From the NCBI RefSeq assembly GCF_015999245.1, contig NZ_JAEAMR010000003.1:728633-792632 (forward strand): DNA of 64,000 nt, read 5' to 3'. Position 1 is the stretch's first letter; each line of letters starts with the position of its first letter. The notes beneath the pieces are model-generated. The model saw only the letters and a program-made list of their open reading frames with translations, had not been told where the DNA came from and did no database searches. This document shows, piece by piece, positions 40,111-49,932 of this stretch. The translations under genes were made by a program, and so were the position numbers. The stretch is from Streptomyces sp. AV19 (GTDB lineage Bacteria; Actinomycetota; Actinomycetes; Streptomycetales; Streptomycetaceae).

Positions 40111-40569
40111 ATGGCGATCGACGCCGGCACCAAGGCCCCTGATTTCGCGCTCAAGAACCAGCACGGCGAGACCGTCCGTCTCTCGGACTTCCGCGGCGAG
40201 AAGAACGTCGTCCTGCTCTTCTACCCCTTCGCCTTCACCGGCGTGTGCACCGGCGAGCTGTGCGCCCTGCGCGACAACCTGCCGGCCTTCGTCAACGACG
40301 ACGTGCAGCTGCTCGCCGTCTCCAACGACTCGCCGTTCTCCCTGCGCGTCTTCGCCGAGCAGGAGAAGCTCGGCTACCCGCTGCTGTCCGACTTCTGGCC
40401 GCACGGCGAGGTCAGCCGCGCCTACGGCGTCTTCGACGAGGAGAAGGGCTGCGCGCTGCGCGGCACCTTCGTCATCGACAAGGAGGGCGTCGTCCGCTGG
40501 ACGATCGTCAACGGCCTGCCGGACGCGCGTGACCTGAACGAGTACGCGGCGGAGCTGGCCAAGCTCTGA
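40111..40569 (+). CDS. AhpE/Bcp-type peroxiredoxin
   Basis: A 152-residue peroxiredoxin. Seen: peroxidatic Cys C46 in PFAFTGVCTGELC with the preceding Thr, a second Cys at C51 five residues on, and the active-site Arg in GTFVIDKEG-type context (ALRGTFVID). It reduces hydrogen and organic peroxides. AhpE of Mycobacterium is a one-Cys enzyme; C51 here could act as resolving Cys as in Bcp-type 2-Cys forms. It precedes the ter genes, consistent with a shared oxidative or metal stress theme. Confidence 0.93.
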   Translation: MAIDAGTKAPDFALKNQHGETVRLSDFRGEKNVVLLFYPFAFTGVCTGELCALRDNLPAFVNDDVQLLAVSNDSPFSLRVFAEQEKLGYPLLSDFWPHGEVSRAYGVFDEEKGCALRGTFVIDKEGVVRWTIVNGLPDARDLNEYAAELAKL

Positions 40570-40705
40570 CGTCCGGGCCCGTCGCTGTGCGCAAGACCCT
40601 GCAATCGGTGGGAACCGGTCACTAGGATCCAGACGTTGACCGGTTGCCATCGCACAACCGGGGGCATGGGCCCGACGGCCCGCCCCTCGAACCAATGGAG
40701 GACTC

Positions 40706-41281
40706 GTGGGAGTCAGTCTCAGCAAGGGCGGCAACGTCTCCCTGACCAAGGCGGCCCCGAACCTGACCGCGGTGATCGTCGGTCTCGGCTGGGACGCCCG
40801 TACCACCACCGGTACGGACTTCGACCTGGACGCGAGCGCGCTGCTGACCAACGAGCAGGGCAAGGTCGTCTCCGACCAGCACTTCGTCTTCTTCAACAAC
40901 CTGAAGAGCCCCGACGGTTCGGTCGAGCACACCGGTGACAACCTGACCGGTGAGGGCGAGGGCGACGACGAGGTCGTCAAGGTCAACCTGGCCGGCGTCC
41001 CGGCGGATGTGCAGAAGATCGTGTTCCCGGTGTCCATCTACGACGCCGAGACCCGTCAGCAGAGCTTCGGCCAGGTGCGCAACGCGTACATCCGCGTGGT
41101 CAACCAGGCCGACGGCTCCGAGCTGGCCCGCTACGACCTGAGCGAGGACGCCTCGACCGAGACCGCGATGGTCTTCGGCGAGCTCTACCGCCACGGCGCG
41201 GAGTGGAAGTTCCGCGCGGTGGGCCAGGGTTACGCCTCCGGCCTGCGCGGCATCGCCCAGGATTTCGGCGTCAACGTCTGA
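40706..41281 (+). CDS. terD: TerD-family tellurium resistance/stress protein (copy 1)
   Basis: A 191-residue TerD-domain protein. TerD proteins bind calcium through conserved acidic loops, seen here as [21 protein letters not shown] and [12 protein letters not shown], and are linked to resistance to tellurite, phages and other stresses and, in Streptomyces, to development. The start is a GTG behind GGAGG. Followed by a strong terminator, so it can be expressed separately from copy 2. About 80 percent of residues match copy 2. Confidence 0.96.
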
Positions 41282-41301
41282 TCCGACGCCAGTGACCGCA
41301 T

Positions 41302-41341
41302 CCGGCGCCGCACCCCCGCAATACCGGGGGTGCGGCGCCGG
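41302..41341 (+). terminator. Terminator between the terD copies
   Basis: A 16-bp perfect stem, 41302-41317 with 41326-41341, and an eight-base loop. Lies in the gap between the two terD genes. Confidence 0.88.
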
Positions 41342-41388
41342 ACGCGCACGGTGACGCGCAACGTTCGATTCGGGGAGGAAGCAAGATC

Positions 41389-41964
41389 ATGGGTGTCACG
41401 CTCGCCAAGGGAGGCAATGTCTCCCTCTCCAAGGCCGCGCCGAACCTGACCGCGATCGTCGTCGGTCTCGGCTGGGACGCCCGCACCACGACCGGTGCGG
41501 ACTACGACCTGGACGCCAGCGCGCTGTTGTGCGCCGCGGGCCGGGTGCTGGGCGACGAGTACTTCGTCTTCTACAACAACCTCAAGAGTCCCGAGGGTTC
41601 GGTCGAGCACACCGGCGACAACCTCACCGGGCAGGGCGACGGCGACGACGAGACGATCCTGGTGGACCTCGGCAAGGTCCCGGCCGCCTGCGACAAGATC
41701 GTCTTTCCCGTCTCCATCCACGAGGCCGACGTCCGGGGCCAGAACTTCGGCCAGGTGCGCAACGCCTACATCCGCGTGGTCAACCAGGCCGACGGCTCCG
41801 AGCTGGCCCGCTACGACCTGAGCGAGGACGCCTCCAGCGAGACGGCCATGATCTTCGGCGAGGTCTACCGCTACGGCGGCGAGTGGAAGTTCCGCGCGGT
41901 GGGCCAGGGTTACGCGTCCGGGCTGCGGGGCATCGCCATGGACTTCGGCGTCAACGTTTCGTGA
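41389..41964 (+). CDS. terD: TerD-family tellurium resistance/stress protein (copy 2)
   Basis: A 191-residue paralogue of the upstream TerD with the same acidic calcium-binding loops ([21 protein letters not shown] and [12 protein letters not shown]). It carries two cysteines (ALLCAAG and PAACDKI) that copy 1 lacks. The stretch encoding [20 protein letters not shown] and the next dozen residues is nearly base-identical to copy 1. ATG start behind GGAGGAAG. Its end is repeated several times downstream. Confidence 0.96.
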
Positions 41965-42033
41965 CGTTCGGCGTCAACGTTTCATGCGTTCGGCGTCAAT
42001 GTCTTGTGACGTTCGGCGTCAGCGTCCTGTGAC
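41941..42033 (+). repeat. 22-23 bp tandem repeat derived from the terD 3' end
   Basis: TTCGGCGTCAACGTTTC-type units begin at 41944, 41967, 41989 and 42012, the first covering the last codons of terD (FGVNVS and stop) and the next three lying beyond the stop. A related copy with GACTTCGGGGTCAATGTTTC lies at 42081-42100, just before the DUF475 gene. Confidence 0.85.
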
Positions 42034-42146
42034 GGAGGGTGCGCGGATACGCCCGTCCCGCCCCGACGGAGGGGCCCTTAGACTTCGGGGTCAATGTTTC
42101 GCAAAACCCCGCTCGTGCGGGGGGAACCCGAGCAACGAAGGATTGG

Positions 42147-43298
42147 GTGGCAGTGCTCCTGAAAACCTTTGGCTGGTCGTTCGCCGTCACGGCGGGCGGG
42201 CTTGCCCTGGCCGGTGTGCTCTGGGGGTGGAAGGGGCTGGCGCTCGTCGCGATCCTGTCCATCCTGGAGATCTCGCTGTCCTTCGACAACGCGGTCATCA
42301 ACGCGGGCATCCTGCGGAAGATGAACCCGTTCTGGCAGAAGATGTTCCTGACGCTGGGCATCCTCATCGCCGTCTTCGGCATGAGGCTGGTCTTCCCGGT
42401 CGTCATCGTGGCCATCACCGCCAAGCTCGGGCCCATCGACGCCGTCGACGTCGCGATCAACGACCACGAACGTTATGAGCAGTTGGTCACCAGCGCCCAC
42501 CCGGCCATCGCCGCGTTCGGCGGAATGTTCCTGCTGATGATTTTCCTTGACTTCATCTTCGAGGACCGGGACATCAAGTGGCTCAGCTGGCTGGAGCGCC
42601 CCTTCGCCCGGATCGGACGGGTCGAGAGCCTGTCGGTCATCGTCTCGCTGGTGGTGCTGATCATCACGGCCACCACGGTCGCGACGGCCGTGCCGGTGCA
42701 CGGCGGTGAGGGCACGATCGACAAGGCGTCCACCGTCCTGCTCGCCGGAGTCGGCGGACTGCTCACGTACTTGATCGTCGGCGGCATCTCCGCGTTCTTC
42801 GAGGAGCGGCTGGAGGACGAGGCGGATGAGGCGGACGACGCCGGCGAGGCGTCCGCGCCCGCGAAGAGCTCCGGCGCCGCCGTCGCCGGGCTGGCCGGCA
42901 AGGCCGCGTTCTTCATGTTCCTCTACCTGGAGGTCATCGACGCCTCGTTCTCCTTCGACGGCGTCATCGGTGCCTTCGCGATCACCAACGACATCTTCGT
43001 GATGGCGCTGGGCCTGGGCATCGGCGCGATGTACATCCGATCGCTGACGGTCTTCCTCGTCCGCAAGGGGACCCTGGACGACTACGTCTACCTCGAGCAC
43101 GGCGCGCACTACGCGATCGGCGCGCTCGCCGTGATCCTGCTCGCCACGATCAAGTACGAGATCAACGAGGTGATCACGGGCACCATCGGCGTCCTCCTGA
43201 TCGCCCTGGCCTTCTGGTCCTCGGTGCGGCGCAACCGCAAGGAGACCGGGGCGGGCGCCGGCGGCGGGGACCGTCAGGAGGTCGCGTCCGGGGTGTGA
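42147..43298 (+). CDS. DUF475 TerC-like integral membrane protein
   Basis: A 383-residue membrane protein with about nine hydrophobic segments. Two acidic membrane motifs, EISLSFDNAVINAGIL and EVIDASFSFDGVIGAF, are the hallmark of the TerC/DUF475 superfamily and probably bind a cation; TerC proteins are implicated in metal (notably manganese) export and Ter stress responses. A charged loop (about 230-250) is rich in Asp/Glu. GAAGGA precedes the GTG at 42147; a GTG two codons later is possible. The open frame to 42039 runs through a terD-like repeat and is rejected. Confidence 0.9.
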   Translation: MAVLLKTFGWSFAVTAGGLALAGVLWGWKGLALVAILSILEISLSFDNAVINAGILRKMNPFWQKMFLTLGILIAVFGMRLVFPVVIVAITAKLGPIDAVDVAINDHERYEQLVTSAHPAIAAFGGMFLLMIFLDFIFEDRDIKWLSWLERPFARIGRVESLSVIVSLVVLIITATTVATAVPVHGGEGTIDKASTVLLAGVGGLLTYLIVGGISAFFEERLEDEADEADDAGEASAPAKSSGAAVAGLAGKAAFFMFLYLEVIDASFSFDGVIGAFAITNDIFVMALGLGIGAMYIRSLTVFLVRKGTLDDYVYLEHGAHYAIGALAVILLATIKYEINEVITGTIGVLLIALAFWSSVRRNRKETGAGAGGGDRQEVASGV

Positions 43299-43347
43299 GA
43301 CCCCGTCCGGCCCGGGTGTGACCCCGGCACGTGCGCGGGAACCCTCT

Positions 43348-43389
43348 GAGCGGGGCGGTGGTGAGTTTCAGCTCACCGCCGCCCCGCTC
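43348..43389 (+). terminator. Terminator between DUF475 and the TerA-like gene
   Basis: An 18-bp stem with one wobble pair: 43348-43365 with 43372-43389, six-base loop (TTTCAG). Confidence 0.85.
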
Positions 43390-43443
43390 ACCGGTTTCCG
43401 GAGGGGAGACCGGACCACGAGGGTCACGAGGGTGGGGGCCGTC

Positions 43444-44196
43444 ATGACGGTATGGGACAAGCTGTTCGGCAACTGGGGGCGTGGGGCCGCCTGGCAGTTC
43501 GACGCTCCGCACGGCGGGAGCGGGGCGGTCGAGCTGACCAAGCGGCGCCCGGTCTACTCGCTGACCAAGAACGGCGCGGTCAGCGGCAACATGCGGGTCA
43601 ATCTGTCCTGGCAGATGCGGACCTCGGACCTGCACGAGCGGCGGTCGGCCGCCCGCGGGTCGTCCGTACGGCATCCGTTCCGGAAGTTCACGCCGGAAGT
43701 CGTGCAGGCGCAGGGGACGGCCATGGTCACCGTGGACCTCGACCTCGCCTGCATGTATGAGCTGTGGGACGGGTCGAAGGGCGTAGTCCAGCCGCTCGGG
43801 AACATACTGGGCAGCGTCAACTCGCCGCCGTATGTGCAGTTGAGCGGTGACGACCGGTTCGGGGCCGGGTCGGGCGAGACGATCTACATCAACATGGACC
43901 ATCGGGAAGAGATCAAGCGACTGCTGATCTTCGTCTACATCTATGACGGGACCCCGGCGTTCGACCGTACGCAGGCCACGGTGACGCTGTACCCGGGCAA
44001 CGGCCCCCGGCTCGAGGTCTCGCTCCACGAGCGGGCGCCGGAGGCGCGGTCGTGCGCGGTGGCGCTGATCGAGAACGACAAGAAGGAGATTGTCGTGCGG
44101 AGGGAGATGCGGTACGTGTACGGGTTCCAGTCGGAGCTGGATCGGTTGTACGGGTGGGGGTTGCAGTGGGGGCGGGGGTACAAGAGCAAGGTGTGA
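43444..44196 (+). CDS. TerA-like tellurium resistance protein
   Basis: A 250-residue protein resembling TerA-type members of the TerD superfamily. Seen: an N-terminal MTVWDKLFGNWG helix, a first beta domain (GAVELTKRRPVYSLTKNG), then a TerD-like core (VTVDLDLACMYELWDGSKGVVQPLG, DDRFGAGSGETIYINM, IYDGTPAFDRTQATVTLYPG). The acidic loops are sparser than in TerD, so calcium binding may be weaker. It sits between the DUF475 gene and the inverted-repeat element and completes a TerD-TerD-TerC-TerA set on one strand. Confidence 0.82.
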   Translation: MTVWDKLFGNWGRGAAWQFDAPHGGSGAVELTKRRPVYSLTKNGAVSGNMRVNLSWQMRTSDLHERRSAARGSSVRHPFRKFTPEVVQAQGTAMVTVDLDLACMYELWDGSKGVVQPLGNILGSVNSPPYVQLSGDDRFGAGSGETIYINMDHREEIKRLLIFVYIYDGTPAFDRTQATVTLYPGNGPRLEVSLHERAPEARSCAVALIENDKKEIVVRREMRYVYGFQSELDRLYGWGLQWGRGYKSKV

Positions 44197-44241
44197 GGGG
44201 TGGGTGTTGGCGGGGGCGGGTGCCGCTGACGTGTTGAGGGT

Positions 44242-44435
44242 GCCCTGGTCCCTCCCCCAGAGGGGGGGCACCCCTACTTTCACCGTTTCTTCCGGGGCTG
44301 CGCCCCTCGGCCCCGCAACGCGGCTGCGCCGCGTTCGTCCTCAAACGCCGGACGGGCTGGATCGGGGGTGCAGGGGGCGGAGCCCGGAAGAAACGGTGAA
44401 AGTAGGGGTGCCCCCCTCTGGGGAAGGGGCCAGGG
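44242..44435. repeat. 194-bp element with 55-58 bp terminal inverted repeats
   Basis: The left arm (44242-44299) and right arm (44381-44435) are near-perfect reverse complements sharing CACCCCTACTTTCACCG and the GTTTCTTCCGGG edge; they differ by a few substitutions and single-base gaps. The 81-base core holds CGGCCCCGCAACGCGGCTG and the CGTCCTCAAACGCCGGACGG module found at two other loci. It lies in the gap between convergent TerA-like and TerD-tail genes and encodes nothing. Structure is MITE-like or that of a giant transcriptional hairpin. Confidence 0.85.
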
Positions 44436-44444
44436 CGGAATCCC

Positions 44445-45281
44445 CTACCCGCCCGGCAGGAACTGCGGGCCCTGCGGCGGCAGTCGGAAGGCCGGGTCCG
44501 GTGCCGGCACCGCGCCCTGCGGCGGATACCCGTACGACGGCTGCGCCGTCGGATACTGCGGGTAGCCGTACGCGGGCTGTGCGGCGTCGGCCGGCGGAGC
44601 CGCCGGCGGTGCCGGTGCCGGGATCGCCGGCGGCACGGACGGCGGCGGGGGGTAAGCGCCGGACGCCGGCGTCGTCGGCGGTATGGGCTGTATCGGCTCG
44701 GCCGGGTCCGGGTCCGGGCCGGGCGTCGGCGCCCCGGAGTCCTCCACCGAGATCCCGAACTCCGTCGCCAGCCCCACCAGCCCGGACGCGTACCCCTGCC
44801 CCAGCGCCCGGAACTTCCAGCCCTCCCCGCGCCGGTACAGCTCCCCGCAGATCATCGCCGTCTCGTCCCCCGTCTCCGGCCGGACGTCGAAGCGGGCCAC
44901 CGCGTCGCCGCCGGGGGCCGCCGCCGTGTCGTACAGCAGCACGCACAGGTCCTCGACCCGGCCGAACGTCCCGCCGTCCGCCGACGCCGCGAGCACCACG
45001 CGGCGCACCGAGCCGTCCAGTGCCGCCAGGTCGGTCTCGATGGAGTCGGTCAGGCCCTCCGGCAGCCGCTTCTTGGGGAGGTGACGCACCAGGCCGGACG
45101 GGTGGCGCGGCTGGTTGTAGAAGACGAAGTCCTCGTCGGAGCGCACGCGGCCGTCGTCGCCCAGCAGCAGGGCGGAGGCGTCGACGTCGGGGACGCCCGG
45201 ACCGGGGGTCCAGCGCAGCACGGCCCGAACGGCCGGGGCCTCCAGCGGGATGTTCGATCCCTTCAGCATCGCGTGCGTCAT
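44445..45281 (-). CDS. TerD-domain protein with proline-rich tail
   Basis: A 278-residue protein: a TerD domain (about 1-180) with acidic motifs [42 protein letters not shown] and [16 protein letters not shown], then a 95-residue disordered tail of Pro, Ala, Gly and Tyr ([20 protein letters not shown]). TerD-plus-tail proteins act as stress sensors or scaffolds in predicted Ter systems; the tail may mediate assembly (inference). GGAGGGCAGG lies upstream of the ATG at 45281. Divergent from the metabolite operon at 45453. Confidence 0.9.
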
Positions 45282-45351
45282 GCCCGCAATCCTGCCCTCC
45301 CGTACGGGCCCCGGACAACGCGGGCCGATGTGCCGCCCGTTTGGGGAACTC

Positions 45352-45380
45352 TTGACCCACCGCCGAGCGTACGATAATCG
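45352..45380 (+). promoter_or_regulatory. Promoter of the Ter metabolite operon
   Basis: TTGACC at 45352-45357 and TAATCG at 45375-45380, with a 17-base spacer. It lies in the 171-base gap between the divergent TerD-tail gene and the lyase operon. Confidence 0.5.
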
Positions 45381-45452
45381 GCCACACAGGACGGCCGACG
45401 GCCGGACCGACCGGCGGTACGCCATCCGCAATGGGGAGCAACGGGGAGAAAA

Positions 45453-46625
45453 ATGCGGCATTTTGGACACCTTGCGCCCGAGGTGCGGAATGGGTTGTTC
45501 CACCAGGAGCCGGCCGAGTTCGACGCCGGCTCCCCGGTCCCCGTGCTCGCCGCCGCCCTCGGCGCCACGCTCTACAGCCCCGCCACCCGCCCCACCCTCG
45601 CCCGGGACGTCGTCAAACAGGCCGGCCAGGGTGTCGTGTCCATGGTCCTGTGCCTGGAGGACTCGATCGGCGACGCCGACGTCCCCGCCGCCGAGGAGAA
45701 CCTCGTCCGGCAGTTCGCCGAGCTCGCGGCGGCGCCGTCGCACACGCCGCTGCTGTTCGTCCGCGTCCGCGAACCGGAACAGATCACCGATCTGGCACGC
45801 CGGCTCGGCCCCGCCCGCCGGCTGCTCTCCGGCTTCGTCCTGCCCAAGTTCACCGAGGACCGCGGGCTGCCCTTCCTGGAAGCCGTCGCCGAGGCCGAAG
45901 CCGTTCACGGGCAGCGGCTGTTGGCCATGCCCATCCTCGAATCCCCCGAGCTTCTCCACCTGGAGACCCGCGCCGACACCCTGGCCGGCATCGCCCGCGC
46001 CACAGGCAAGCACCGCGAGCGCGTGCTCGCCCTGCGGCTCGGCGTCACCGACTTCTGCTCCGCGTACGGACTGCGCCGCGCGCCCGACATGACCGCCTAC
46101 GACGTCCAGCTCGTCGCCTCCGTCATCGCCGACGTCGTCAACGTCCTCGGACGCGCGGACGGCAGCGGGTTCACCGTCACCGGTCCCGTGTGGGAGTACT
46201 TCCGCCAGCACCAGCGGATGTTCAAACCGCAGCTGCGCCGCAGCCCGTTCGCCGGGCCCGCGGAGGCGCTGCGCTCCGCCCTGATCGAGCACGACATGGA
46301 CGGGCTGCTGCGCGAGATCGAACTCGACCGCGCCAACGGCCTGCTGGGCAAGACCTGCATCCACCCCACGCACGTGGCGCCGGTGCACGCCCTGTCGGTC
46401 GTCAGTCACGAGGAGTTCAGCGACGCGCGGGACATCCTGCGGTCGGTCGACGGGGGCGGGGGCGGGGTGCTGCGCTCCTCGTACACCAACAAGATGAACG
46501 AGGTGAAGCCGCACCGGGCCTGGGCAGAAAGGACCCTGCTGAGGGCGGGGGCGTTCGGTGTGGCCAGAGAGGAAGTCGGTTTCGTGGAACTGCTGGGCGC
46601 GAGCGTACGAGGAGCGATCCTGTGA
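45453..46625 (+). CDS. CitE/HpcH-like C-C bond lyase of the Ter system
   Basis: A 390-residue TIM-barrel aldolase-type protein of the HpcH/HpaI/citrate lyase beta superfamily. Seen: [15 protein letters not shown] (metal-binding acid), [22 protein letters not shown] and [13 protein letters not shown]. Known: this branch (Pfam C-C_Bond_Lyase) is encoded next to PRTase, StiP and HAD genes in Ter operons and is predicted to build or cleave the side chain of a nucleoside-like metabolite. Its stop overlaps the next gene's GTG by four bases. GGGGAG lies just before the ATG. Confidence 0.9.
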
Positions 46626-49099
46626 CCCCGTCGACCTGGTCGGGACAGTGGGTGGCGGACCGCCTCGGCGTACGGCTGGAGGGCGACGCCGCCCTCCCCG
46701 GACTGCTGGGCCTCGCGCTGCGGCGCAACCCGCGGCGGGCGCACCTCCTCGTCTCCAACGTCCTCGGCAAGCACGTGCCGCAGCGGCCGTCGGCCGTGCA
46801 CGGCGCCGGGCTCGGGCTCGGGCGGCGCGTCCGCGAGCTCCTCGGCGAGGCGGACGCGGCCCGGTCGGTCGTCCTCGGATACGCGGAGACCGCGACCGGC
46901 CTGGGCCACTCCGTCGCGGACGGGCTGGCCCTCGCCCCGTATCTGCACTCCACGCGCCGCCCGGTGCGGGGCGTCGCACCGGTCGGCGGCTTCGAGGAGG
47001 AGCACAGCCACGCGACGTCGCATCTGCTGCTCCCGGACGATCCGGCGCTGCTCGCGTCCGACGGGCCGCTGGTGCTCGTGGACGACGAGTTCTCCACGGG
47101 CCGTACGGTCATGAACACCATCGCTGCCCTGCACCGCCGGTACCCGCGCGACCGCTACGTGATCGTCGCCCTGGTCGACATGCGCGGCGCCGACGACCGC
47201 GCCGGGCTGGACGCCTTCGCGGCGGAACTGGGCGCCCGCGTGGACCTGATCGCCCTCGCGTCGGGGACGGTGACCCTGCCGGAGGACGTCCTGGAGCGCG
47301 GCCAGGAGCTCGTGGCGCGCTGGTCGGGCCCGGAGGCGGCGCCGTCCCCCACCGCTCCGGGGGAAACGGGAGGGGGCGGGGAGAACTCCCGCCGCCACGG
47401 CGAGCAGCCGGCCACGGCCGTTCCGGCGGTGCCGGGCCGTCCGCACCCGGGAGGCGACGCCGCCCGCGTCGACCTCCGCTGGCCCGCCGGTCTCCCCGAC
47501 GGCGGGCGGCACGGGTTCACCCCCGCGCACCGCGCCCGCCTGGAGCGCGAACTGCCGCGCATGGCACGGGAGATCGCCCGCCACCTGGAGCCGGACTCCC
47601 GCGTCCTCGTCCTCGGCAACGAGGAGCTGATGTACGCCCCGCTGCGCCTCGCCGAGGCGCTGGAGACGCGGCAGGGCGTGGATGTGCGGTTCTCCACCAC
47701 CACCCGTTCCCCCGTCCTCCCCGTGGACGACCCGGGATACGCCATCCGCACCCGGCTCCGCTTCCCCGCCCACGACGCCCCCGCCGACGGCCCGGGCGAC
47801 CGCTACGCGTACAACGTCGCGGGCGCCGGCTTCGACGCCGTCGTCGCGGTCGTCGACTCCACCGCCGACACCCCCGAACTGCACGCGCCCGGCGGCCTGC
47901 TGGACCGCCTGGCCGCACACACCGGAAAGGTGCTGCTCGCCGTGATCCCCTCCCACCGGGCCCCGCGCGAACCCCTGCGCGGCCCCGCGTTCTCGTCGTA
48001 CGCGCCCGAGGACGTCGGCTGGCTGCTCCAGGACCTCTCCGGCGTCACCCTGGAGGCGCCCATCGAGGAGCGCGAGGAGGCGATCCAGAGCGGCGGCGCG
48101 CACTACGCCGAGTCGCTGCCCGTCGAGTACCAGCCCTGCGAGCGCTACCAGGCGCTCTACCACGCCGCCCTCGACGCCTCGGCCGACCGCCTCGCCCGCG
48201 CCGTCGGCGTCGTCACCGAGACCGTGCTCGCCGAGCGGTCCCCCCGCCCGGTGCTCGTCTCGCTGGCCCGCGCCGGCACCCCCGTCGGCGTGCTGATGCG
48301 CCGCTGGGCCCGGCACGCGCACGGCCTGGACCTGCCGCACTACGCCGTCTCCATCGTCCGCGGCCGGGGCATCGACACCGCCGCCCTGCGCTGGCTCGCC
48401 GAGCGGCACGACCCGTCCGACGTCGTCTTCGTCGACGGCTGGACCGGCAAGGGCGCCATCACCCGCGAGCTCGAAGCGGCCCTGGAGGAGAGCGAGTTCG
48501 ACCCGCGGCTCGCCGTGCTCGCCGATCCCGGGTCCTGTGTGACGACCTACGGCACGCGCGACGACTTCCTCATCCCCTCCGCCTGCCTCAACTCCACCGT
48601 CTCCGGGCTGATATCGCGCACCGTCCTGCGCGCCGACCTGGTCGGGCCGGACGACTTCCACGGCGCCAAGTACTACCGGGAGCTGGCCGGTTCGGACGTC
48701 TCCCGCGCCTTCCTGGACGCCGTCGCCGCCCGCTTCGACGCCGTCGCCGAGGACGTCGCCCACGACGCCAAGGAGCTCGCCGCCGCCGACCGCACCCCCA
48801 CCTGGCAGGGCTGGGCCGCCGTCGAGCGGATCAGCGAGGAGTACGGCATCCACGACCCCAACCTCGTCAAGCCCGGCGTCGGCGAGACCACCCGCGTCCT
48901 GCTGCGCCGCGTCCCCTGGAAGATCCTCGCCAAGCGCGGCGCGGGCGCCGGGCTCGACCACGTACGCCTGCTCGCCGCCCAGCGCGGCGTCCCCGTGGAG
49001 GAGGTGGACGGGCTGCCGTACAGCTGCGTCGGCCTCGTCCACCCCCGGTACACCAGGGGCGCCACCGGCGCCGACGGAAAGGCTGTCCCCACCTCATGA
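46622..49099 (+). CDS. PRTase-TRSP-StiP-Pelota four-domain fusion of the Ter system
   Basis: An 825-residue fusion. In order: an orotate-PRTase-like domain (about 1-235) with the PRPP-binding loop [13 protein letters not shown] (D154); a linker rich in Gly, Pro and Ala (about 240-285) containing a trace of the intergenic repeat; a TRSP domain with its name-giving motif at residues 361-364 (STTTRSPV); a StiP-like domain (about 440-700) with [30 protein letters not shown] and [11 protein letters not shown]; and a Pelota-type RNA-binding domain at the end ([16 protein letters not shown]). Known: PRTase_2-TRSP and StiP-Pelota are Ter-operon partners predicted to make a nucleoside-like product, more often as separate genes. 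GTG start and ATGA overlap with the next gene. Confidence 0.9.
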
Positions 49100-49932
49100 G
49101 CACCCTGCTGGCCAGCGACCTCGACCGGACGCTGATCTACTCCTCCGCCGCCCTCCGCCTCGCCGGGCCGGACGCGGACGCCCCCCGGCTGATGTGCGTC
49201 GAGGTGTACGAGGGCAGACCGCTGTCGTACCTGACCGAGACCGCCGCCGGGCTCCTCGCGGAGCTCGCCGGCACCGGCGCCCTCGTCCCCGCCACCACCC
49301 GCACCGTCGCCCAGTACCGCCGCGTCCGGCTGCCCGGGCCGCCGCCCCGGTACGCGGTCTGCGCCAACGGCGGCGAGATCCTCGTCGACGGCGAACCCGA
49401 CACCGCCTGGCGGACCCGCGTACGCCGGGCCGTCGCGGACGGCTGCGCCTCCCTCGACGAGATCCGCGCGTACATCGCCCGCACCGCCGACCCCGTCTGG
49501 CTGCTGAAGGACCGCACCGCGGACGACCTCTTCGCCTACCTCGTCGTCGACCGGGAGCGCCTGCCCGCGGCCTGGGTGGACGAACTGGCCGCCTGGGCCG
49601 GCGCACGCGGCTGGAACGTCTCCCTCCAGGGGCGCAAGGTCTACGCCGTGCCCCGCCCGGTCACCAAGGGCGCCGCCGTCACCGAGGTCGCCCGCCGCGC
49701 CGGGGCCACCCGCGTCCTCGCCGCCGGCGACTCGCTGCTCGACGCCGACCTGCTGCTGGCCGCCGACCGCGGCTGGCGGCCCGGCCACGGCGAGCTCGCC
49801 GACAGCGGCTGGAGCGCCCCGCACGTCACGGCCCTGGAGACGGTCGGCGTCGCGGCGGGGGAGGAGATCGTCCGGGCCTTCGCGGCAGTGATGGCCGAGG
49901 ACCGTGCGGCGGTTGGTGTCCGGAACGTCTGA
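49096..49932 (+). CDS. HAD-family phosphatase of the Ter system
   Basis: A 278-residue HAD hydrolase of the Cof/sucrose-phosphatase type. Seen: motif I DLDRTL with nucleophile D8 and D10, motif II Thr in VPATTRTVAQ, a cap domain (about 90-190) and motif III/IV K in TKGAAV and GDSLLDADLL. It probably dephosphorylates the product of the PRTase/StiP steps (inference from operon). The ATG overlaps the fusion gene's TGA. Confidence 0.92.
   Translation: MSTLLASDLDRTLIYSSAALRLAGPDADAPRLMCVEVYEGRPLSYLTETAAGLLAELAGTGALVPATTRTVAQYRRVRLPGPPPRYAVCANGGEILVDGEPDTAWRTRVRRAVADGCASLDEIRAYIARTADPVWLLKDRTADDLFAYLVVDRERLPAAWVDELAAWAGARGWNVSLQGRKVYAVPRPVTKGAAVTEVARRAGATRVLAAGDSLLDADLLLAADRGWRPGHGELADSGWSAPHVTALETVGVAAGEEIVRAFAAVMAEDRAAVGVRNV

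Follow-up and report, generated by a model that had tools for sequence, protein, structure and literature searches.

What does the enzyme set of a Streptomyces Ter locus make, and under which stress would it be switched on? The question is raised by positions 40,706 to 49,932 of a 64,000-nucleotide stretch of the Streptomyces sp. AV19 genome (assembly GCF_015999245.1, contig NZ_JAEAMR010000003.1, positions 728,633 to 792,632; from now on referred to as the window, with coordinates counted from its first nucleotide), where TerD-, TerC- and TerA-type genes adjoin genes for a C-C bond lyase, an 825-residue four-domain fusion protein and a HAD phosphatase. We hypothesize that lyase, fusion and phosphatase make a ribosylated small molecule in a core Streptomyces stress locus, and we give this model as a whole an even chance of being correct. 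Ribosylation dependent on phosphoribosyl pyrophosphate (PRPP), followed by dephosphorylation, is the most economical reading of the set. The CitE-like lyase would prepare or cleave an acceptor, the PRTase_2 and StiP domains of the fusion would each transfer a 5-phosphoribosyl group from PRPP, and the HAD phosphatase would then remove the 5-phosphate. The PELOTA/L7Ae-like domain may position an RNA or nucleotide ligand, TRSP may serve a structural or regulatory role as a degenerate phosphoribosyltransferase (PRTase) core, and joining two cooperating partners in one chain would fix their stoichiometry. TerD/TerC-type proteins may read the product, and an envelope-stress sigma factor of the sigma-E type, a member of the extracytoplasmic function (ECF) class, could switch on the TerD and lyase genes together.

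The lyase gene (45453..46625, plus strand) encodes a CitE-type protein scoring 403 bits with Pfam PF15617 (C-C_Bond_Lyase), and a profile built from four of its relatives hits the citrate lyase structure 3qll (E 4.8e-15). The fusion gene (46622..49099, plus strand) starts with GTG and carries the Pfam domains PRTase_2-TRSP-StiP-PELOTA_1. It is followed by the gene for a HAD phosphatase of sugar-phosphate type (49096..49932, plus strand), assigned from profile and structure matches and from its HAD motifs. This protein barely clears the Pfam S6PP cut-off (20.5 versus 20.3 bits) and on its own matches a solved "trehalose phosphatase" at E 1.9e-9, while a profile built from four Ter HADs aligns with that structure over its full length (E 4.6e-48); the motif residues (DxD, Lys, GDxxxD) are intact in all four aligned sequences. 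The literature on trehalose phosphatase was uninformative for the HAD protein. The initial annotation had described the three genes as fully overlapping, and they share 4 bp at each junction: the lyase stop at 46625 with the fusion GTG at 46622, and the fusion stop at 49099 with the HAD ATG at 49096. Lyase and fusion, the latter judged by PELOTA_1, are each present once in the genome, which is 99.67% complete in 111 contigs.

A Pfam profile search matched all four domains that the initial annotation had read in the fusion, each above 110 bits against cut-offs of 25-29 bits. On the plus strand, these are PRTase_2 (residues 28-215, 46703..47266, 226 bits), TRSP (residues 293-428, 47498..47905, 138 bits), StiP (residues 458-701, 47993..48724, 357 bits) and the PELOTA_1 or L7Ae-like domain (residues 728-807, 48803..49042, 114 bits). 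Searches of NCBIfam with the fusion, of PDB sequences with the whole fusion and of BFVD by fold were uninformative. AlphaFold2 models the fusion with a predicted local distance difference test score of 84.5, the input rows being chosen sets of 101 and 100 sequences. PRTase_2 is a type I PRTase judged by its predicted, APRT-like fold and by an intact, conserved PRPP motif, and the StiP domain has a type I PRTase fold in the predicted structure. The predicted folds are thus like those of APRT, PyrR and HGPRT, as is the PRPP motif of PRTase_2; unlike those enzymes, the domains stand in tandem and the identities are low (14% to 5zc7_A and 17-18% to 1xz8_A and 1ufr_A). The StiP loop FxDGWxGKG (here DGWTGKG) is conserved in 11/11 sequences; this test of invariance covers 11 of 248 aligned sequences, the three distant homologues L117-L119 having been dropped as the motif was not found in them, and a separate motif scan covered 18 loci from StiP-bearing genomes of the phylum survey described below. 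L117-L119 come from a different family of the same phylum and adjoin TerD-like genes. TRSP is possibly a degenerate PRTase core: in the predicted model its order of secondary-structure elements resembles that of PRTase_2, and the profile score between the two (25.5) exceeds all 60 column shuffles (best 21.05) as well as the reversed profile (14.3), but the hhalign probability is 8.7%. The fold-match lists do not list TRSP separately and hold no evidence against a PRTase core.

Several observations weigh against a pair of catalytic PRTases acting on a small molecule. The StiP alignments found by Foldseek are loose, the best having an E-value of 4.4e-05 and a root-mean-square deviation of 10.0 over 179 columns, and a StiP-PELOTA profile search of PDB sequences returned no PRTase. 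Compared with the canonical PRPP loop, DGWTGKG is shorter and has no second Asp; together with the failure to find the motif in L117-L119, this means that StiP may be a binding domain. Most of the best fold matches of StiP are to PyrR, and PyrR, HGPRT and 8a0c lie within about 1 Z unit of one another, so that the acceptor class is not readable from the fold.

The tie with 8a0c brings up a different acceptor. The PRTases could attach ribose to a hydroxyl group on a glycan, lipid or protein, giving an O-riboside, as CriT and CrpP of Bcs3 do, in which case the envelope would be modified and no soluble nucleoside-like signal would arise. We consider this unlikely, though by no means negligible. 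According to two papers (PMC10299916, PMC11127046), Bcs3 of the H. influenzae type b capsule combines the PRTase-like ribosyltransferase CriT with the HAD phosphatase CrpP, and a PRPP-dependent transferase plus a HAD phosphatase is there the known logic of ribofuranose addition. StiP aligns over 181 residues with residues 639-918 of the capsule multienzyme 8a0c_B, which span CriT-CAT according to PMC10299916; this length is exceeded only by a 268-residue, 22-angstrom row to 8a0m_A, the same enzyme, and 8a0c is equated with Bcs3 from the structure title and the paper rather than from a stated entry code. Envelope-stress control of the sigma-E type would suit such a product as well. However, 8a0c ties in Z with PyrR and HGPRT, the Ter HAD matches a HAD of the trehalose-phosphatase type, and Bcs3 and glycan phosphoribosyltransferases have a polymer acceptor and, as far as those texts describe them, neither a CitE-like lyase nor an L7Ae-like domain nor Ter genes.

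A second alternative starts from the predominance of PyrR among the top StiP rows. StiP-PELOTA could be an RNA regulator in which a PyrR-like PRTase fold and an L7Ae-like domain bind or modify RNA while PRTase_2 and HAD supply or clear a ligand. PyrR binds RNA, and all 16 PDB-sequence matches of the PELOTA part are L7Ae, eL8, S12 or Snu13, the matches being weak (E 0.044 to 1.2). StiP ties structurally with HGPRT too, however, and HAD and lyase point to metabolite chemistry, which leaves the regulator quite improbable.

The small-molecule reading agrees with what has been predicted for Ter systems. The biosynthetic module was reportedly predicted by Anantharaman, Iyer and Aravind in 2012; our literature search, which did not cover that comparative paper, found no title or abstract on the four-domain fusion, and the Ter-system metabolite is not named in the literature examined. 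In the Ter model as set out in PMC7824862, PRTases and HAD phosphoesterases produce a derivative of a nucleoside or nucleotide, TerB/TerD are its possible sensors and TerC sits in the membrane; PRTases, HAD, lyase, TerD, TerC-like and TerA-like proteins are all present here. The locus thus holds PRTase_2-TRSP, StiP-PELOTA_1 and HAD beside TerD/TerC, together with the PF15617 lyase. On the E. coli IncHI2 and Pseudomonas plasmids, the order is ATP-grasp, PRTase_2-TRSP, one or two genes (HAD in E. coli), StiP-PELOTA and lyase. The IncHI2 module shares the lyase, PRTase and HAD families and the TerD/TerC/TerA context with our locus. The latter differs in the fusion of PRTase_2-TRSP to StiP-PELOTA and in its gene order (lyase-PRTases-HAD); a Ter ATP-grasp was not found, and TerB and VWA-type genes similar to those neighbouring the plasmid module were not seen in the block. 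Phage ME3 encodes PRTase_2, HAD and StiP-PELOTA, and a Pfam scan of it found no TRSP. Closest in layout is a Tsukamurella tyrosinosolvens plasmid (L121) with TerD-TerD-DUF475, lyase, PRTase_2-TRSP, StiP-PELOTA and HAD in the same order and likewise no ATP-grasp match on the plasmid; it differs in that two genes overlapping by 4 bp replace the fusion and in that the protein between DUF475 and lyase is not TerA-like by BLASTP. Scans of viral contigs gave 2 loci each and led nowhere. One 65-kb virus or prophage record in IMG/VR (L126) encodes an ATP-grasp, PRTase_2-TRSP, StiP and a C-C lyase and has a further gene at the place of the HAD. None of the seven locus proteins matches a PADLOC anti-phage model at E <= 0.001.

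The fusion joins domains that, as the initial annotation held, are usually split between genes; this applies outside the present group (Tsukamurella, E. coli, Pseudomonas, phage ME3). The architecture is real but not special to this genome, being the rule in Streptomyces among the 80 named loci (of 233 relatives) that were compared. A total of 6413 proteins related to the fusion were found, and the 120 listed, one of them the window's own, all have the same four Pfam domains. Lyase precedes and HAD follows the fusion in 80/80 named loci, and fusion and HAD overlap by 4 bp in 54 and by 1 bp in 10 of them, with start codons picked mechanically. Two of the 80 (S. rimosus and strain CB02923) are naturally split, an in-frame TGA in the linker being followed by an ATG; some frames in a survey of the genus measure 382 aa and suggest more natural splits. 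In another family of the phylum sample, two genomes have the fusion and two a split form, and in a 17-sequence tree the two fused genomes are nested among split relatives (nodes of 93 and 99%, one of 70%; several nodes of this tree are weak, at 44-70%). Judging from the sequences, the halves were thus apparently joined on two occasions, or on one occasion followed by several splits. Repeated joining would imply that the two halves act together, and one fusion followed by splits, which the tree also allows, detracts from that argument. The natural split forms indicate that a strict covalent channel is probably not needed; they suggest that the covalent link between the halves is dispensable, and the channelling of an intermediate that the initial annotation had proposed is not supported.

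The gene block is a core Streptomyces locus, single-copy here and not unusual in the genus. StiP occurs in 291/295 genomes of the genus, a survey in which only part of the matches are listed, and in 20/396 genomes of an even phylum sample, one of the 20 lying below the cut-off. TerD3 is divergent from the lyase gene in 79/80 loci, the remaining locus being cut, and among the 72 loci covering the region, 69 have a TerD-TerD-DUF475-TerA block directly upstream of the lyase gene. The conserved synteny and the near-universal StiP rule out an "island", as the locus had been called. Departures from this layout are seen in Streptomyces mashuensis (L061), where the TerD block is inverted and lies downstream of the fusion at a distance of 5-9 kb, in Streptomyces sp. 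SPB162 (L082), where the block is without the TerD pair, and in Actinacidiphila rubida (L095), where the TerD block is about 5 kb away.

The initial annotation, seeing no ATP-grasp, TerB or TerY in the window, had taken the set to be incomplete or dispersed. No Ter ATP-grasp was found in this genome by a PF15632 search or with a three-sequence profile: the best PF15632 match (28.5-30.6 bits) is a generic ATP-grasp and the best profile score is 24 bits, compared with 129 bits for the E. coli Ter ATP-grasp. PF15632 fires in 13/14 control genomes, and the positive controls of the three-sequence profile (W02, W03, G396) are its own members. A candidate for the missing gene at C19:110034 was rejected as a generic ligase with LAL_C2. 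Three of five congeners tested carry a Ter ATP-grasp (122-127 bits with the three-sequence profile, PF15632 confirmed in the two scanned), in each case far from StiP, and no locus gene surrounds it in the two regions fetched; among the 80 named loci, tblastn found no ATP-grasp in Streptomycetaceae. ATPgrasp_Ter is present in both proteobacterial loci looked at, but it was not treated as defining, since the available text of PMC7824862 does not name it among the Ter components. Its absence from our searches of this genome and its distant position in congeners suggest that it is dispensable for the core set in Streptomyces, rather than that the set is incomplete or dispersed, and the single copies of PELOTA_1 and lyase leave no complete, ATP-grasp-bearing copy elsewhere in the genome. 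TerB scores of 100.5 and 31.7 bits were obtained elsewhere in the genome, and one frame of 571 residues, located outside the window, ends in a TerB domain (C79:442419-442778).

How the locus is regulated can be approached through two ECF-sigma-like sites of the form GGGAAC-N18-CGT, one upstream of TerD1 (40610..40636, plus strand) and one upstream of the lyase gene (45344..45370, plus strand; CGT followed by ACGAT). Both fit the Streptomyces sigma-E class (-35 GGGAAC, spacer 17-18, -10 CGT), whose promoters are tabulated as GGGAAC-N17/18-CGT in PMC6767563. The site precedes TerD1 in 71/71 regions, against a mean of 0.2 in shuffles that preserve base content only. The lyase site was first seen in an alignment of 20 of the 79 divergent intergenic regions; GGAAC-N17-19-CGT is found before the lyase gene in 75/79, GGAAC-N18-CGTAC[GT]AT in 71/79 and GGGAAC-N18-CGT in 53/79. 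Elsewhere the loose form is rare (TerA 8/73, TerD3 2/79, fusion 2/80, TerD2 1/71) and was not found before Prx, DUF475, HAD or OMT, and of 4000 stretches of 300 bp drawn at random from these loci, with the true sites left in, 73 and 40 contain the two strict patterns, respectively. Elsewhere in this genome, further TerD genes (L006, L007, L010) are preceded by similar sites. In S. coelicolor, sco2368 is a sigma-E target whose product is up under vancomycin (PMC6767563), and 17 nt of its reported upstream site occur exactly once in the window, at 40417-40433 inside the peroxiredoxin gene before TerD1, which indicates that TerD1 corresponds to SCO2368. In S. viridochromogenes, oxidative stress is reported to raise the level of a protein with 92% identity to SCO2368 (PMC3912134).

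This evidence has its counterweights. Within the window alone, GGGAAC-N17/18-CGT is at chance level (1.78 expected, 2 found), so that only its conservation counts, and the loci are related, so that 71/71 overstates the case. The SCO2368 site proposed in PMC6767563 lies 317 bp upstream, which here falls in the peroxiredoxin gene and not at 40610..40636, and the sigma-E -10 elements in the table of that paper mostly read CGTCT whereas the lyase site has CGTAC, so that another ECF sigma factor may read the latter. The oxidative rise was 1.99-fold with p 0.15 in wild type and 0.41-fold in an aconitase mutant (PMC3912134). Stress control is therefore supported, if not proven, for TerD1, and may extend to the biosynthetic genes. 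In place of the metal or phage stress first proposed, the Streptomyces evidence points to cell-envelope stress and, more weakly, to oxidative stress.

A bolder form of the small-molecule model would have three tandem PRTase folds, PRTase_2 and StiP catalytic and TRSP degenerate, work under an L7Ae-like cap as a ribosylation machine that puts two phosphoribosyls onto, or serially ribosylates, a lyase-made acid, yielding an envelope-stress signal for TerD/TerC under one ECF regulon across Streptomyces and with no ATP-grasp needed; as a package we regard this, too, as quite improbable. The locus could also be an ordinary housekeeping one serving calcium or redox homeostasis, its biosynthetic genes being mere TerD neighbours without a functional link, in line with its near-universal presence in the genus and with a paper title that ties SCO2368 to calcium homeostasis. 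As annotated, however, the biosynthetic genes also accompany TerD-type genes in Tsukamurella, E. coli, Pseudomonas and phage ME3, and TerD1 and lyase have the same promoter type; we find mere neighbourhood slightly less probable still. Least credible by far is StiP as a cysteine protease and the fusion as a stress protease joined to a PRTase, a candidate we rejected: current Pfam and NCBI names favour it, as do Cys residues at 639 and 655 in 98% of 248 aligned, mostly Streptomyces, sequences, but in E. coli, Pseudomonas, phage ME3 and a prophage the two columns read V, I, R, V (639) and I, L, I, I (655), no cysteine is invariant across six diverse StiP sequences, the predicted fold is that of a type I PRTase, and a published table lists PF11202 as PRTase_1.

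The remaining genes of the locus bear out the three TerD proteins, the TerC-like and the TerA-like protein reported initially. TerD1 (40706..41281, plus strand, 293 bits with Pfam TerD) and TerD2 (41389..41964, plus strand, 276 bits) are followed by a DUF475/TerC-family membrane protein (about 42147..43298, plus strand; DUF475 441 bits, TerC 75 bits; start codon uncertain). The TerA-like protein (43444..44196, plus strand) gave no match in a Pfam scan and is 37% identical to the TerA of the IncHI2 plasmid over 220 columns (E 5e-40); it is the sole PHROGs match, to a family with unknown function. TerD3 (44445..45281, minus strand, 155 bits) is divergent and has a long C-terminal tail. About 30 bp upstream of its start, an ACAACGC box (45315-45321), present in most of 20 aligned loci, is possibly part of its own promoter. 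Between TerA and TerD3 lies a large, imperfect palindrome (44242-44436) with 73-nt arms, 74% complementary, and an 8 nt spacer, the outer 26-nt arms being 92% complementary; it resembles a terminator or a small repeat element, and a 21-nt piece of its core occurs in 2/144 fetched loci, both of this genome. TerD matches number 14 genome-wide, and a second tandem TerD pair (C35:797192-798404) lies about 4.5 kb past the window end with GGAAC-N18-CGT upstream.

Taken as a whole, the locus is a solid member of a known, experimentally unsolved system, to which it adds a PRTase domain filed under the wrong name, a compact variant lacking the Ter ATP-grasp and a common ECF-type promoter. Labelling StiP proteins as "cysteine protease" is probably a mistake and would steer experimenters to the wrong assay, and relatives of the fusion are carried on many plasmids (matches in 2567 of 72,556 plasmid records, 40 of the 2567 being listed). 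With a single-copy compact set of lyase, fused PRTase protein and HAD and a recognisable promoter in a genus that is harmless and genetically tractable, the smallest working set and its inducer would be directly testable.

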